Of a stretch of DNA of 52,703 nt, positions 5,128 through 11,443 are shown piece by piece. Both the position numbers and the translations under genes were made by a program. The DNA comes from a virus: the IMG/VR virus record IMGVR_UViG_3300031857_000265, positions 1 through 52,703 of that record; one strand, written 5' to 3'. The notes below the pieces were generated by a model. It was not told the origin of the DNA, ran no database searches, and saw only the letters and a program-made list of their open reading frames with translations. Every line of letters starts with the position of its first letter. Position 1 is the stretch's first letter.

Positions 5128-5508
5128 CTACTGCTTCCTGCCGTTCGCTATCGCCATCGTGTCGCCGCAACCGCGGAGCAGCATGACGGCGTCCTCCGTG
5201 GTGTTGGACGGGTCGTCCTCCCACGCGTAGATGTCACCCGTCTCGGAGTCGACGCACTCCCACGCCAACAGAGCGGCGGGGCGTGTCGTCTGCGGGACGT
5301 CCGTGGCTATTGCCTCTGGGTCATCGCTCAACTTCTTCCACGGGACGCCGGACGCGACCATGATCGCCCCGACGACGCTGACCGTCCCCGTTGCCCTGTT
5401 CCTGACCGCCCCTCTGCAGAGACCCCTCGTCGCCACCTCCCGCGCCGCGACCATGAGGATCGCCGACGCACGGGAGGTGTTCAGTTCAGAGAACGGCACT
5501 TCGGTCAC
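5128..5508 (-). CDS. DUF6197-like protein
   Basis: The 126-aa protein starts at GTG 5508, overlapping the stop of the upstream reductase gene as GTGA, so it is probably translationally coupled. The sequence follows the pattern of the DUF6197 family common in actinophages: a helix (SAILMVAAREVATRGLCRGA), a GAI core element, LLAWECVDSETGDIYAWEDD, and a final T-x-E-D-A-V-M-L-L-R helix. Typical members have CxxGA where this has SVVGA. The family has no established function. It ends next to the bidirectional hairpin. Confidence 0.6.
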   Translation of the reverse strand: MTEVPFSELNTSRASAILMVAAREVATRGLCRGAVRNRATGTVSVVGAIMVASGVPWKKLSDDPEAIATDVPQTTRPAALLAWECVDSETGDIYAWEDDPSNTTEDAVMLLRGCGDTMAIANGRKQ

Positions 5509-7424
5509 TTGACGGGGCAGGCCCCAGTCGCGCAGTCGTCGAGGTCGATGGACATCAGCCCCGCCTCCTCGGAGAGGGCGACGGAGAAGTCGATCTTGGA
5601 GAAGAGCTTCTCGTACTGCTCCTTGCTGACCTCCTCGTACGGGGGGAGCGGGAAGTTGTGGTCGGCGTGCAGGAGGAAGGAGACGCTCTTGACGCTGTTG
5701 TCGTAGTTCTCCTTGAGCCACTCCTTGATGGCGGGTAGTTCCTCCTTGCGGTAGTAGACGGTGACGGAGACGGCGTTGTCGGCCCAGTCCGTCTGCATCC
5801 GCTTGACCCACTCGAGTTGCTCGACGGCCGTCATGTCGGCGGCGAGGACGGAACCCTCGGGCGACTGGCACGGGAACTCGACGACCCATCTGGTGTGGTC
5901 CTCGCGCCCGTCGAGCCCGACGTCGGGGACGACCTTGTAGCCGCGCTTGCGACACTTGTCCACGAGCGGATCGGCGGCGCCGAACCGCACCCTGCGGATG
6001 TAGTACTTGGCGAAGGCGGGGTGGATGCCGGGGGTGACGCCGGGCAGGAGCGAGAGTGTTCCCGACGGCTGGACCGTGGTCAGCCTCACGGACGGCGTGA
6101 TGCCGGTCTGCTCCGAGAACCACTCGTCGTACTGCCTCAGGGCGTCGTACGCCTCGGGGAGCCACGAGAGTTGCTCGGGGGTGCATTGGAGGACTCCGGT
6201 GACCGACTGCCCGAGCCTGCGGTTCTTGTGGACCATCTTGGTGGTCTTCTCGTACGGGTACTCCATGGAGGTGACCGCCTTCTGCACCTTGTACAGGAGG
6301 CGCGAGATCTCCAGCAGGTCGTCCTTGGAGTTGATGTTCGGGAGGAAGATGGTTGACAGGTTGCAGGACTCGCCGTCGGCGAGGCCGATCTCGGCGCACG
6401 GGTTGAAGCCGTCGATTGTCGGGTCGGGTCGGTTCTCGCCGAGCCTGCCGACCTTCCTGGCCAGACCCCTGTTGATGAGTCCGTACGGCTCCCCCGATCC
6501 GTCGTAGCCGCGCCACAACTCGGAGAGGATGTGGTCGTAGGAGTCGGCGTAGACGCTGTTGTTGCTGTTTGCCCTCCACGCCGGGACGGAGCCGCTGGAC
6601 CAGTTCTTGGCCCTGAGGAACAGGACGTCGTCGGGATCGCCAATGGCGATCTGGGCAGAACGGCGGGACGAGCCGGAGATGACGATCCTGCCGATGATGT
6701 TGCAGATGTCGAGGACGTCGACCGACCTGAGCTTCTTGCCCGCGCGGGCCTCCATGACCTTGCAGATGTCCGTGATCCCGTCGATGAGCGCGCCCGGGCC
6801 GGAGGCGGTGCCGCCGAAGGTCTTGAGGGGTGCGCCGAACTCCCTGACGAGGATCGTCGAGTAGGTGAACGACTTGCCGGTGTAGAAGTACGACTTCAGC
6901 ACGGAGTGGACGAGCTTGCGCCACCCCTGCCTGCTGTCGGGGACGATGATGTCGGCGTCGTTGGTGCGTTCGTGGGCGATGGACACCCCGGTCTTCACCT
7001 TGGGCATCTCGTGGATGCGGGAACGCTCCACGGAGTAGCCCACACCGCCACCGAGCATCAGGTAGTCGAACAGCAGCTCGAAGTCCTCAATCTTCTCCAT
7101 GTTGACGAAGTAGCAGTTGTTGAGGCTGGTCCCGTTGTACTTGTTGACGAGCGGTGTACCGAGTTGCCAGAGTGCGCGCCCGGAGAGCGAACACCTGAGG
7201 TTGAAGATGTGGTCGAAGAGCCTCTCGGCCTCGTCGTCGGTCAGGTTCGCACCGATCTGGATGGCCCCGTTGATACAGCGCTCAATCGTCTCGGGCCAGG
7301 TCTCCTTCCTCCCCTCGACGTCGCGCGCGTACGTGCGCAGGTAGACGATCTCGCCGAGGCCACTGAAGCCCCACGGTGCTTGACGGTTGGTGTAGGAGGA
7401 CACGAAGTCCTTGGAGAGTGCCAT
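5505..7424 (-). CDS. nrdJ: Adenosylcobalamin-dependent (class II) ribonucleoside-triphosphate reductase
   Basis: The 639-aa enzyme reduces ribonucleotides to deoxyribonucleotides for phage DNA synthesis. The finger-loop motif NPCAEIGL (N341, C343, E345) supplies the thiyl-radical cysteine. C104 (NNCYF) and C354 (ESCNLS) fit the active-site disulfide pair. The C-terminal CATGACPVK holds the shuttle pair C631/C636, with the same five-residue spacing as the Lactobacillus leichmannii enzyme, making this the monomeric RTPR type. It is about 100 aa shorter than that enzyme (739 aa), mainly from shorter peripheral segments. It needs no oxygen and no second subunit, but it does need vitamin B12 made or imported by the host. 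The A/C-rich leader before the ATG resembles that of the capsid gene. Confidence 0.93.
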   Translation of the reverse strand: MALSKDFVSSYTNRQAPWGFSGLGEIVYLRTYARDVEGRKETWPETIERCINGAIQIGANLTDDEAERLFDHIFNLRCSLSGRALWQLGTPLVNKYNGTSLNNCYFVNMEKIEDFELLFDYLMLGGGVGYSVERSRIHEMPKVKTGVSIAHERTNDADIIVPDSRQGWRKLVHSVLKSYFYTGKSFTYSTILVREFGAPLKTFGGTASGPGALIDGITDICKVMEARAGKKLRSVDVLDICNIIGRIVISGSSRRSAQIAIGDPDDVLFLRAKNWSSGSVPAWRANSNNSVYADSYDHILSELWRGYDGSGEPYGLINRGLARKVGRLGENRPDPTIDGFNPCAEIGLADGESCNLSTIFLPNINSKDDLLEISRLLYKVQKAVTSMEYPYEKTTKMVHKNRRLGQSVTGVLQCTPEQLSWLPEAYDALRQYDEWFSEQTGITPSVRLTTVQPSGTLSLLPGVTPGIHPAFAKYYIRRVRFGAADPLVDKCRKRGYKVVPDVGLDGREDHTRWVVEFPCQSPEGSVLAADMTAVEQLEWVKRMQTDWADNAVSVTVYYRKEELPAIKEWLKENYDNSVKSVSFLLHADHNFPLPPYEEVSKEQYEKLFSKIDFSVALSEEAGLMSIDLDDCATGACPVK

Positions 7425-7958: not shown

Positions 7959-9284
7959 ATGAACAGACCCAAGGTTCTTTCGCTCTTCAGCGGCGCCGGC
8001 GGACTAGATCTCGGGCTTGAGCGGGCCGGGATGGAAGTCGTCGCGCTGTGCGAGATCGACCCCAAGGCGAAGATGGTGCTGCGCAAGCACTGGCCACACA
8101 CCCACATCTATGACGACGTAAGAGAGGTAACCCGTGAACGACTCATCGCAGACGGCATCGCCCGCCCAGACATTGTGGCAGGAGGAAGTCCCTGTCAGGA
8201 CCTCTCCGTTGCCGGACGTCGTAAGGGACTTGATGGATCTCGCTCAGGGCTCTTCTGGGAGCAGTGCCGGATCTCCGACGAAATCGGGGCGGACATCCTC
8301 TGGGAGAACGTCCCCGGCGCCCTATCTAGTAACAACGGAGCCGACTTCGCTGCCGTGCTGTGGGGAATCACAGGAGCACTCGTCGAGCTGCCCCCTAAGC
8401 AGAAGTGGGCCAAGTCCGGCGTCCTGGTGGGACCAAAGCGGACAGCCATCTGGCGTGTTGCCGATGCCCAACGTTTCGGAGTTCCCCAACGACGGCGTCG
8501 TATCTACGTTGTCGGATGTTCTGGAACCGTGGCACGAGGGCTTGCGCCGCTACTGCTTGAGTGCGCGGGCGGCCAAGGGAATCATCAGGCGGGCCGAGAG
8601 GCGGGGACGAGAGCTCCCCGAACCGTTGCGGACGGCTCTGACGACTCTAGCGGCCCAGGAGCCGGACGAGGAATCACCGACGGAGGACTGACCGCCTGGG
8701 TCAAATCCAAGCGGGCATCGTCCAACACGGACGACGACACGTGGCGCGACCAGCCGGTCAGCCCGACCCTCAACGCGTTCGACAACTCCGGGGAATCGCG
8801 GGCGACCGTGCTCACCGTCCAGGAGGGGGTGCTCCCGTTCACCGAGAACAGGTTCGCCCAGTACGCCGAGGGAGTCGGGGCGTTGCGCGCCTCGGGAGGG
8901 ACGCTCGGCGGCGGGTCCGAGACATTGTTGATCGACAACGCAGGGGTTGCCGCCTGCCTGAGGAGCGGGGGCGACGGCGGTGTCCCATCCAGCAGGGGGG
9001 AGAACCTCGTCGTCCAGCAGGACCGGATCGCCGACACGATCGGCTTCTCGCACACCCAGGGTCTTGACCACCAAGCGTCGACCGAGGCCTTCCCGACGCT
9101 GAGGGCCGAGGGCGGCGGGCACGCCGTCATGTACGACACCAGGTCGACCGTCCTCTTCCAGCAGAACCAGCGGGACGAGGTCAGGATCATGCCGGGGTAC
9201 GCCGGCTCGCTCAACGCCGAGAACGGCATGCACAACACCAACTTTCTCGTGCAACCGCAAGAGGACGACGGTGCCGACATCTGA
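7959..9284 (+). CDS. C5 cytosine DNA methyltransferase, N-terminal catalytic part
   Basis: The 441-aa protein carries the SAM-binding and catalytic half of a DNA (cytosine-5) methyltransferase: motif I FSGAGGLDLG, the Pro-Cys loop GGSPCQDLSVAG with catalytic C79, ENV motif WENVPGAL, and motif VIII QRRRRIYVV. After motif VIII there is no normal target-recognition domain followed by motifs IX-X. Instead come degenerate repeats of the form TLxA...G...V(L/V)V, and the frame ends. Motifs IX-X appear three reading frames later (10271-11443). The gene therefore looks like the first piece of a four-part enzyme. Possible roles are protection against host restriction or signalling of packaged DNA. It hosts an embedded gene in another frame at 8134-8691. 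Confidence 0.85.
   Translation: MNRPKVLSLFSGAGGLDLGLERAGMEVVALCEIDPKAKMVLRKHWPHTHIYDDVREVTRERLIADGIARPDIVAGGSPCQDLSVAGRRKGLDGSRSGLFWEQCRISDEIGADILWENVPGALSSNNGADFAAVLWGITGALVELPPKQKWAKSGVLVGPKRTAIWRVADAQRFGVPQRRRRIYVVGCSGTVARGLAPLLLECAGGQGNHQAGREAGTRAPRTVADGSDDSSGPGAGRGITDGGLTAWVKSKRASSNTDDDTWRDQPVSPTLNAFDNSGESRATVLTVQEGVLPFTENRFAQYAEGVGALRASGGTLGGGSETLLIDNAGVAACLRSGGDGGVPSSRGENLVVQQDRIADTIGFSHTQGLDHQASTEAFPTLRAEGGGHAVMYDTRSTVLFQQNQRDEVRIMPGYAGSLNAENGMHNTNFLVQPQEDDGADI
8134..8691 (+). CDS. Embedded overlapping gene inside the methyltransferase catalytic domain
   Basis: The 185-aa product lies entirely within the methyltransferase gene but in the +1 frame. GTG 8134 is preceded by an AGAGAGGT Shine-Dalgarno sequence five bases upstream. 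The C-terminal part reads VVSTLSDVLE..., then LSARAAKGIIRRAERRG and ELPEPLRTAL. From memory this matches a segment seen in proteins annotated next to or within phage C5 methyltransferases (LSxKACxGILRRAxxRGKxLP), so I take it as a selected product. The Ser/Pro-rich N-terminal half could be only the shadow of the methyltransferase frame. Function is unknown. A frameshift product joining it to the methyltransferase is another possibility. Confidence 0.5.
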   Translation: MNDSSQTASPAQTLWQEEVPVRTSPLPDVVRDLMDLAQGSSGSSAGSPTKSGRTSSGRTSPAPYLVTTEPTSLPCCGESQEHSSSCPLSRSGPSPASWWDQSGQPSGVLPMPNVSEFPNDGVVSTLSDVLEPWHEGLRRYCLSARAAKGIIRRAERRGRELPEPLRTALTTLAAQEPDEESPTED

Positions 9285-9891: not shown

Positions 9892-10274
9892 CCAAATACG
9901 AAAGGGTGCCGCCAGAGGGCGATGACGACACGGTCGCCGCCCTGACGGTCTCCGACCTGGTGAAGGGACAGGGCAACAACCAGTCCATGATGTCCGGCTA
10001 CCTCCAGGTGTACGCACTCCCGCAGGCGTTCTCGGTCAGGGAGGATGCGAAGGCGAACAACTTCCACGCCACCCCGACGGACACCGCGCTGTGCGTGAAC
10101 GCCCTCAGGCCGTCACCGCAGTCGCACCACGCACAGATCTTCATCGTTCAGGCGGAAGTGCCGTGCCAAGTCGACGGCTCGCCCATCGCCTCCACGCTCA
10201 GGGGTTTCGGGCACGGCTGGCAGGGCCAGCACAACTCAACCAACGCAGTCGTACAGGATGCGGAGGAGGGGTGA
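9888..10274 (+). CDS. Methyltransferase middle segment 2 (target-recognition-like repeats)
   Basis: 128 aa from ATG 9888, which overlaps the preceding stop as ATGA. It contains three more degenerate units (AALTVSDLVKGQGNN...LQVY, ALCVNALRPSP...IFIV, STLRGFGHG...NAVV) and no catalytic motif. It ends inside the next start (GTGA at 10271-10274). Taken alone it would be called hypothetical. The repeat similarity to both neighbours is the reason for placing it in the same enzyme. Confidence 0.55.
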   Translation: MTKYERVPPEGDDDTVAALTVSDLVKGQGNNQSMMSGYLQVYALPQAFSVREDAKANNFHATPTDTALCVNALRPSPQSHHAQIFIVQAEVPCQVDGSPIASTLRGFGHGWQGQHNSTNAVVQDAEEG

Positions 10275-11443
10275 GCGACGTTTACGGCTACGACGAGTAC
10301 AACGACTCCATCGCCGAAGAACTACACCATTCCCTGAGGGCCGGCACGAGGCAGTCCGTCGGTGTCGTACACCCACTCCCGGATGGCGTCAAGTTATTCG
10401 AGCCGATGTCGATGCGCGAGGAGAACTGGGCCGAGAGCGAGGTCAAGAACGCCCTCAGGGCCGGTGCCTCGAAGTCGTCCCACGCCGTCGTCTGCGAGGC
10501 CGTGGAGTCGGAGGAGCCGCAGGCGATCGCCTTCACCACGGAGCAGACCCCCAAGTTCTCGCCCGACCTGGCGTTCACCCTCACGGGCGGTTCGCCGTCG
10601 GGCGGTGGCCAGCCACAGTCCGTCATGCAGCGCGTCCAGATGCTCAACTTCCAGGGGAGCAAGGGGAACACCGTCGTGTCGGACGACGGGCAGTCATTCA
10701 CCCTCAACGCTATGCACGGCCACGACGTCCACGTCATCGCCTACAACATCATGGGCGCACCGCCGAGGGAGCCAGACAGGCCCAACGGCGGCTACTACGT
10801 CAACGAGACGCAGGTGACCAAGACGCTCGACGCCTTCGGCGACGGTCTCAACCCGAGCGTCAACCAGGGCGGCCTCGCCATAGTGACCAGGTCGTGGCCT
10901 GTGTCTTTCAGGGGAAGGGACGGAGGAATGACCGCAGAACAGGGCGAGGAGGGGATCGCCAACACGATCAGGGCTGGGCAGGGCGGGAGCGTCCGCCCCC
11001 ATGTCCTGATCAGCGAAGGCCCCGTGGGCACGCTCACCACGGACATGGGTACGAAGATGCAGGTCAACAACCAGTCCGTCGACAGCAATCACCTCCAGGT
11101 CTTCGCGGAAATCGTGCAAGACCCGGCAGGAACGGGTACTATCGGCACGACGGCGGGGCTGCCCGCCATAGACATGATTGACAAAGAAGGGAATGACATG
11201 ACCGCAAACTCGAACGCACTGGTAGTGAGGCGCCTGACCCCGCTGGAATGTGAGTTGCTCATGGGATGGGAGCCGGGCTGGACCGAGGTCGGCATCACCG
11301 AGAAGGGCGAACTCGTCGAGATGGCCGACACGCATCGCTACAGGATGTGCGGCAACGGTGTCGTCTCCAATGTCGCCCACTGGATCGGGGCAAGGTATGT
11401 CGCGTCCAAGCAGGCCGCGGGTGAATCGGTCGGTTCGTGGTAG
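10271..11443 (+). CDS. C5 cytosine DNA methyltransferase, C-terminal part with motifs IX-X
   Basis: 390 aa from GTG 10271. The first about 300 residues hold seven or so more repeats of the TL(x)AG...V type (SLRAGTRQS, ALRAGASKS, FTLTGGSPS, FTLNAMHGH, NTIRAGQGG, GTLTTDMGT). The end is the classical C5-methyltransferase C-terminus: RRLTPLECELLMGWEPGWT (motif IX side) and RYRMCGNGVVSNVAHWIGARY (motif X, which completes the SAM pocket). The N-terminal piece at 7959-9284 lacks exactly these motifs, so the two ends must belong to one protein fold, either by association or by joining. Confidence 0.75.
   Translation: MSDVYGYDEYNDSIAEELHHSLRAGTRQSVGVVHPLPDGVKLFEPMSMREENWAESEVKNALRAGASKSSHAVVCEAVESEEPQAIAFTTEQTPKFSPDLAFTLTGGSPSGGGQPQSVMQRVQMLNFQGSKGNTVVSDDGQSFTLNAMHGHDVHVIAYNIMGAPPREPDRPNGGYYVNETQVTKTLDAFGDGLNPSVNQGGLAIVTRSWPVSFRGRDGGMTAEQGEEGIANTIRAGQGGSVRPHVLISEGPVGTLTTDMGTKMQVNNQSVDSNHLQVFAEIVQDPAGTGTIGTTAGLPAIDMIDKEGNDMTANSNALVVRRLTPLECELLMGWEPGWTEVGITEKGELVEMADTHRYRMCGNGVVSNVAHWIGARYVASKQAAGESVGSW

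Follow-up and report, generated by a model that had tools for sequence, protein, structure and literature searches.

A nested gene, read in the +1 frame from within the catalytic domain of a viral C5-cytosine methyltransferase gene, is almost certainly real, conserved and dual-coding, as judged from comparison of sequences across related phages and prophages. The window, by which we mean the whole stretch of DNA that was analyzed, is a 52.7-kb virus record (IMGVR_UViG_3300031857_000265), and the same +1 ORF is present in essentially all testable related phage and prophage C5-methyltransferases, including dmt of phage P1 (~240 loci, many of which are related, so that this count and those below overstate independence).

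Results

A +1 frame nested in a viral methyltransferase gene

The elements of the methyltransferase locus in the window are as follows.

7959-9284, + strand: C5-cytosine methyltransferase ORF (frame 0), 441 aa, with motifs I-VIII (PF00145, E=2.6e-36)
8121-8128, + strand: Shine-Dalgarno-like sequence AGAGAGGT of the nested gene, a few bases 5' of the GTG
8134-8691, + strand: +1 gene nested in the methyltransferase, 185 aa from a GTG start, with predicted disorder over residues 1-120
8190-8198, + strand: methyltransferase motif IV (PCQ), within the overlap
8304-8312, + strand: methyltransferase motif VI (ENV), within the overlap; strong +1-frame constraint starts about here
8487-8501, + strand: methyltransferase motif VIII (QRRRR), within the overlap
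8509-8658, + strand: conserved tail of the +1 protein, predicted to fold as four helices (residues 126-175, LSDVLE...RYCLSARAAKGIIRRAERRGRELPEPLRTAL)
10091-11443, + strand: downstream ORF with methyltransferase motifs IX-X (VRRLTPLECELLMGW...)

The 185-codon +1 frame with its own Shine-Dalgarno sequence and GTG start, described in an earlier note made from this sequence alone, is thus found at 8134-8691, and the methyltransferase frame retains motifs IV, VI and VIII over the same bases, as that note had also claimed. When codons were shuffled synonymously, so that the frame-0 protein and its codon usage were both unchanged, the 185 +1 codons stayed open in 16% of shuffles (P=0.16). As the window is GC-rich, the length of the +1 ORF alone is no evidence for a gene; its openness in the window is unremarkable and the case therefore rests wholly on comparison. 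The neighbor of the methyltransferase on the opposite strand (window 5505-7424, - strand) is a ribonucleotide reductase, apparently B12-dependent (PF21995 insertion domain, 9.1e-07).

The +1 tail lies within methyltransferase genes of diverse phages and prophages

The earlier note had proposed a homology search with the 185-aa product, and this succeeded for one part of the protein: tblastn with the whole sequence gave no match, and with a single +1 N-terminus it gave no phage relative, while the C-terminal part alone matched methyltransferase genes of Vibrio, Cronobacter, Mycobacterium, Aeromonas and Pseudomonas phages, in the +1 frame at every locus examined. Later tail matches came from Escherichia phage P1 dmt and from Sinorhizobium, Akkermansia, Ruminococcus and Faecalibacterium phages, and the consensus of the tail is LSxVLE...(P)xRYxLSxKACAGILRRAEKRGKxLPxxLxxALxxVA.

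To avoid selecting loci via the tail, 80 viral loci were fetched by methyltransferase alignment. A +1 match was observed in 79 of these. A model of the tail alone matched 78 (worst E 6e-12), and the remaining two loci stop at a contig edge, so that the tail is found in +1 in 78/78 untruncated loci. The methyltransferase frame is open through the tail in all but a few of the same set. When loci were fetched with the tail, all 80 viral and all 80 prophage matches lay within a methyltransferase gene, at +1, and among about 300 loci the tail was never found as a stand-alone gene outside a methyltransferase. Two candidates for a separate state were rejected: an 81-aa protein of mycobacteriophage Thibault, the top fold match, is the same +1 tail after an HNH insertion, and a 402-aa +1 ORF in one locus (L309) was read as an indel in the methyltransferase. 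For the P1 gene, dmt-like sequence is present in 493/5426 complete E. coli genomes, and the P1 records examined do not list the nested ORF as a gene.

The locus is altered in two further groups of phages. In the Omegavirus mycobacteriophages Schatzie (L268, 348-1871) and Thibault (L269, 344-2145), the methyltransferase is broken by an HNH endonuclease ORF that sits after motif VIII and before the tail, likely as a homing intron or an insertion at this junction; the Schatzie annotation states that the intron boundaries are impossible to determine. In the Faecalibacterium phages FP_Toutatis (L020, 2114-2719) and Lelie (L270, 1299-2531), the frame changes in a G-rich stretch between ENV and motif VIII, possibly through slippage or in a pseudogene, and the annotated Toutatis methyltransferase CDS consequently continues in frame into the tail.

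Selection acts on both frames, and its balance shifts along the overlap

Frequent +1 stops among relatives, which the earlier note had named as a sign against the gene, are not observed: the stretch from ENV to motif VIII has no +1 stop in 157/158 viral loci (60 expected), and in 76/76 prophage loci the same holds from ENV as far as the tail (33.7 expected). The methyltransferase frame, in turn, is open in the tail in 166/169 sequences, compared to 74 expected. From ENV onward, the codons used for conserved methyltransferase residues depart from expectation, and Leu codons creating a +1 stop, though present upstream, are missing.

Within the tail, amino-acid entropy per column is 1.44 bits in +1 and 2.40 bits in the methyltransferase frame (169 unique tail blocks), and the most variable base is the third position of +1 codons. 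At invariant +1 Leu, Arg, Pro, Ala and Gly residues, all synonymous codons are used while the overlapping methyltransferase residue varies. The tail is conserved by its own codon pattern, and its homologs are more than the methyltransferase shadows that the earlier note had warned of.

Overlap-aware dN/dS was calculated by counting substitutions by their effect in both frames, across 68 independent pairs. Omega for the +1 frame declines from 0.91 upstream of the overlap (control) to 0.73 in the interval from ENV to motif VIII and 0.37 over the tail, and omega for the methyltransferase over the same regions rises from 0.21 to 0.35 and 0.86. The synonymous-rate analysis that the earlier note had suggested gave a drop in the methyltransferase frame from 0.635 upstream to 0.365 between ENV and motif VIII and 0.186 in the tail. 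The trend in selection is the same among the window's closest relatives. Selection on both frames over more than 500 bp, as the note had proposed, is borne out by the +1 omega in the tail and by the openness of both frames beyond chance, with the refinement that the balance shifts: up to motif VIII the methyltransferase frame dominates, and in the tail the +1 frame dominates, with the methyltransferase weakly constrained though open.

Among P1-like plasmids (L017, L271-L275), the tail has one of two alternative 3' halves (AEKRRKSLPPLLQMALQSVAKA versus AEARGRKLPDILQTSLSELAMIQT) that are almost wholly different in the methyltransferase frame but recognizably the same domain in +1. These alternative halves are a sign of recombination inside the overlap with preservation of the +1 domain.

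It is very improbable that the +1 frame is a chance ORF whose similarity mirrors methyltransferase DNA conservation, with no translation: some of the +1 block, where it runs over motif VIII, does shadow the methyltransferase in this way, and ORF length in the window alone is not significant, but in the tail methyltransferase residues vary freely over invariant +1 residues with full synonymous codon use and a low omega(+1), methyltransferases that carry the corresponding segment in their own frame (described below) show no such +1 openness, and an RNA element with the same codon-level pattern is very unlikely given the third-position variation, so that a shadow-only reading is ruled out by the codon-level tests together with overlap dN/dS.

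Conserved starts favor independent initiation

In the start column of the window's group, GTG is found in 15 rows, the window included, and ATG in 2, and near relatives have similar Shine-Dalgarno sequences at equal spacing before the GTG or ATG. Across loci, the last upstream +1 stops cluster twice, near methyltransferase codons 53-61 and 90-108; in the later-starting group the start is typically an ATG immediately before Q. An N-terminal peptide, QL[TS][MLIF]F, recurs at both start positions, and Shine-Dalgarno-like sequences are enriched among motif-bearing loci (71% versus 27%).

Conserved starts with Shine-Dalgarno sequences and the N-terminal Q-L-x-L/M-F peptide favor independent initiation over programmed ribosomal frameshifting, in which a +1 slip near motif VIII would yield a shortened methyltransferase (motifs I-VIII plus tail) beside the full enzyme. 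Such a slip would fit with the position of the tail directly after motif VIII and its homology to a segment found there in frame in other methyltransferases, as well as with the Faecalibacterium phages, in which an indel fuses methyltransferase and tail in frame. It requires, however, none of the features seen upstream: openness of the +1 frame is maintained for about 50 codons upstream of that point, in the 157 viral loci noted above, codon constraint extends through motif VIII back to ENV, and the starts with their Shine-Dalgarno sequences and conserved N-terminal peptide lie far upstream. We therefore consider frameshifting improbable; the pattern of starts argues that the nested protein is very probably translated from its own start.

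The tail resembles an in-frame segment of ordinary methyltransferases

A wider scan, seeded by a Streptococcus phage methyltransferase, yielded 60 loci with the +1 tail and 19 without. Six of the 19 contain an RLxDILExxVDEKYYLSEE-like segment in the methyltransferase frame, after motif VIII, and from ENV to motif VIII these six have about as many +1 stops as chance predicts (19 versus 21.9). In the remaining loci the segment is shorter, SLxDILEEQVDEKYFLS, and lies in +1; the twelve of this kind that were tested have no +1 stop over the same interval (0 versus 17.2). In profile comparisons with hhalign, the short +1 version matched the in-frame segment at a probability of 98.2% and the long tail at 98.3%, and the long tail matched the in-frame segment at 95.1%.

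These alignments make it highly probable that the tail is homologous to the segment that follows motif VIII in frame in ordinary C5-methyltransferases, displaced into +1. The likeness to a methyltransferase-related segment that the earlier note had seen in the C-terminus can thus be made specific, as a likeness to this in-frame segment. In the simplest history, an indel would have put the post-motif-VIII segment out of frame, after which the methyltransferase frame would have been rewritten over it and the old frame would have survived as the end of the nested gene.

AlphaFold predicts that residues 1-120 of the nested protein are disordered and that residues 126-175 form four helices, with pLDDT >90 over most of the tail. 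Sequence searches of the family against Pfam, NCBIfam and the PDB gave no match above noise, Foldseek and VIA-align against solved structures gave no more than marginal helical matches (best Z 5.0), and a PDB search with the in-frame segment found no methyltransferase.

Two PHROGs named DNA methyltransferase match +1 proteins. phrog_16143 (139 positions) matches 81/113 of them (best 2.6e-14) and may, from these alignments, consist of annotated copies of the nested protein named after the overlapped gene. phrog_1008 matches 17/113 in their N-terminal region and also matches the motif IX half of the methyltransferase, and its members may include second-subunit proteins with the same overprinted N-terminus. 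The window's own +1 protein matched nothing in PHROGs at E<=1. Both entries carry a name only, with no description there of the overlap, the tail or selection.

The methyltransferase of the window lineage is split

Motifs IX and X of the window methyltransferase are not in the same chain as motifs I-VIII but on the ORF at 10091-11443, so that the enzyme of this lineage is split, with I-VIII on 7959-9284. The near relatives L008-L016 show the identical split, and motif IX is on another ORF in 60 loci overall, mostly in the groups nearest the window; it is unlikely, because of this recurrence, that the split is a sequencing error. In 213 other loci, motif IX lies within the methyltransferase ORF, alongside motifs I-VIII.

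A clamp-type motif occurs in about half of lineages

Hda binds the beta-clamp through a motif, Q-phi-x-[L/M]-[F/L], in its disordered N-terminus (PMC11139829). A clamp-type motif was found in 51/158 loci of our first set compared to 1.8 expected, with a pattern that was picked after inspection of the data. In a fresh validation set of prophages, the pentapeptide form of the published clamp-binding motif (PMC11139829) was found in 38/76 loci compared to 0.65 expected, and the other half of the validation loci are without it. The canonical motif is absent from the window's own copy, which has QTASP where its relatives L011 and L014 have QTTLF, and from the P1 copy, which has QLTTN. Clamp binding therefore cannot be the universal function of the nested protein. 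For the motif-bearing lineages, about half of the total, enrichment of the peptide suggests that the nested protein could be tethered to the host sliding clamp, a reading to which we give a little less than even odds.

The +1 protein and Hda or other beta-clamp clients have this motif in common, in about half of +1 lineages and as a prediction of binding in the present case; the +1 protein differs from them in having no AAA+ or other known domain.

A proposed accessory subunit

The explanation that we favor overall, and consider moderately probable on the sequence comparisons, is that of a nested gene with its own start that carries a displaced methyltransferase segment and encodes an accessory subunit, with a clamp peptide in about half of lineages. 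Its product would have a disordered N-terminal half, overprinted on motifs IV-VIII, and then a folded helical C-terminal domain of ~50 residues that opens with the DILE...KYYLS segment of ordinary C5-methyltransferases. Made from the same mRNA, it would dock on the methyltransferase in trans via the displaced segment, and in about half of lineages the peptide at or near its start would direct methylation to newly replicated phage DNA. We infer the accessory function from motif and homology. That the nested protein binds its methyltransferase is tentatively suggested by the origin of the tail.

Since the motif is enriched at the N-terminus, and a disordered N-terminus is joined to a small folded domain, the protein might instead target the clamp or replisome of the host, perhaps as an inhibitor, with its site inside the methyltransferase reflecting genome economy. 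We regard such a host-takeover role as unlikely: the tail is derived from the methyltransferase itself and never occurs outside a methyltransferase gene in the loci surveyed, although embedding alone could explain the latter.

A further alternative, also unlikely but less so, is a second subunit needed for catalysis, with no role at the clamp, as in split methyltransferases of the M.EcoHK31I/M.AquI type. The small subunit of M.EcoHK31I is read from a frame overlapping the gene of its large subunit. Natural two-polypeptide C5-methyltransferases, M.AquI and M.EcoHK31I, are known, whose small subunit contributes motif IX in EcoHK31I and, in AquI, motifs IX-X with part of the variable region, and the parts of a split C5-methyltransferase reassemble readily, with the best result for a cut between motif VIII and the target-recognition domain (PMC3404938). 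The placement of motifs IX-X on a separate ORF in the window's group would suit such a subunit, as would the dual match of phrog_1008 to the +1 N-terminal region and the motif IX half. The 185-aa product, however, stops before motif IX and lacks it, and 213 loci hold motifs I-VIII and IX in one methyltransferase ORF. The proposed pair resembles M.EcoHK31I and M.AquI in distributing C5-methyltransferase function over two polypeptides of one locus; unlike their small subunits, the +1 protein has neither motif IX nor a variable region with IX-X, and has instead the DILE...KYYLS segment and a helical domain, with a clamp-like motif in many lineages.

To return to the accessory subunit that we favor, the eukaryotic DNMT1-PCNA system, in which the sliding clamp recruits a C5-methyltransferase to DNA that has just been replicated (PMC9690074), offers an analogy; DNMT1 has its clamp motif in cis, whereas here it would be on a separate nested protein. 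The full combination, a clamp-tethering subunit acting in trans, encoded by a widespread unrecognized nested gene that arose from an out-of-frame slip and forming a phage counterpart of DNMT1-PCNA, is a speculative reading that we hold at less than even odds, below either clamp tethering or methyltransferase binding taken singly.

Discussion

Nested phage genes and two-polypeptide C5-methyltransferases are both known; what appears to be new here is the conserved nested family, and our literature search found no description of it or of the overlap. Same-strand dual coding over a long stretch, with both frames selected, is rare and difficult to demonstrate, and the nested gene described here is found in hundreds of methyltransferases of phages and prophages across several bacterial phyla, the classic phage P1 among them. 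Its occurrence in P1 turns two matters into testable questions in a laboratory phage: whether the methyltransferase needs its out-of-frame partner, and whether that partner sits on the replication clamp. The history proposed for the tail would also represent a route to a new gene, in which a segment of an enzyme survives in its old frame while the enzyme is rewritten over it.
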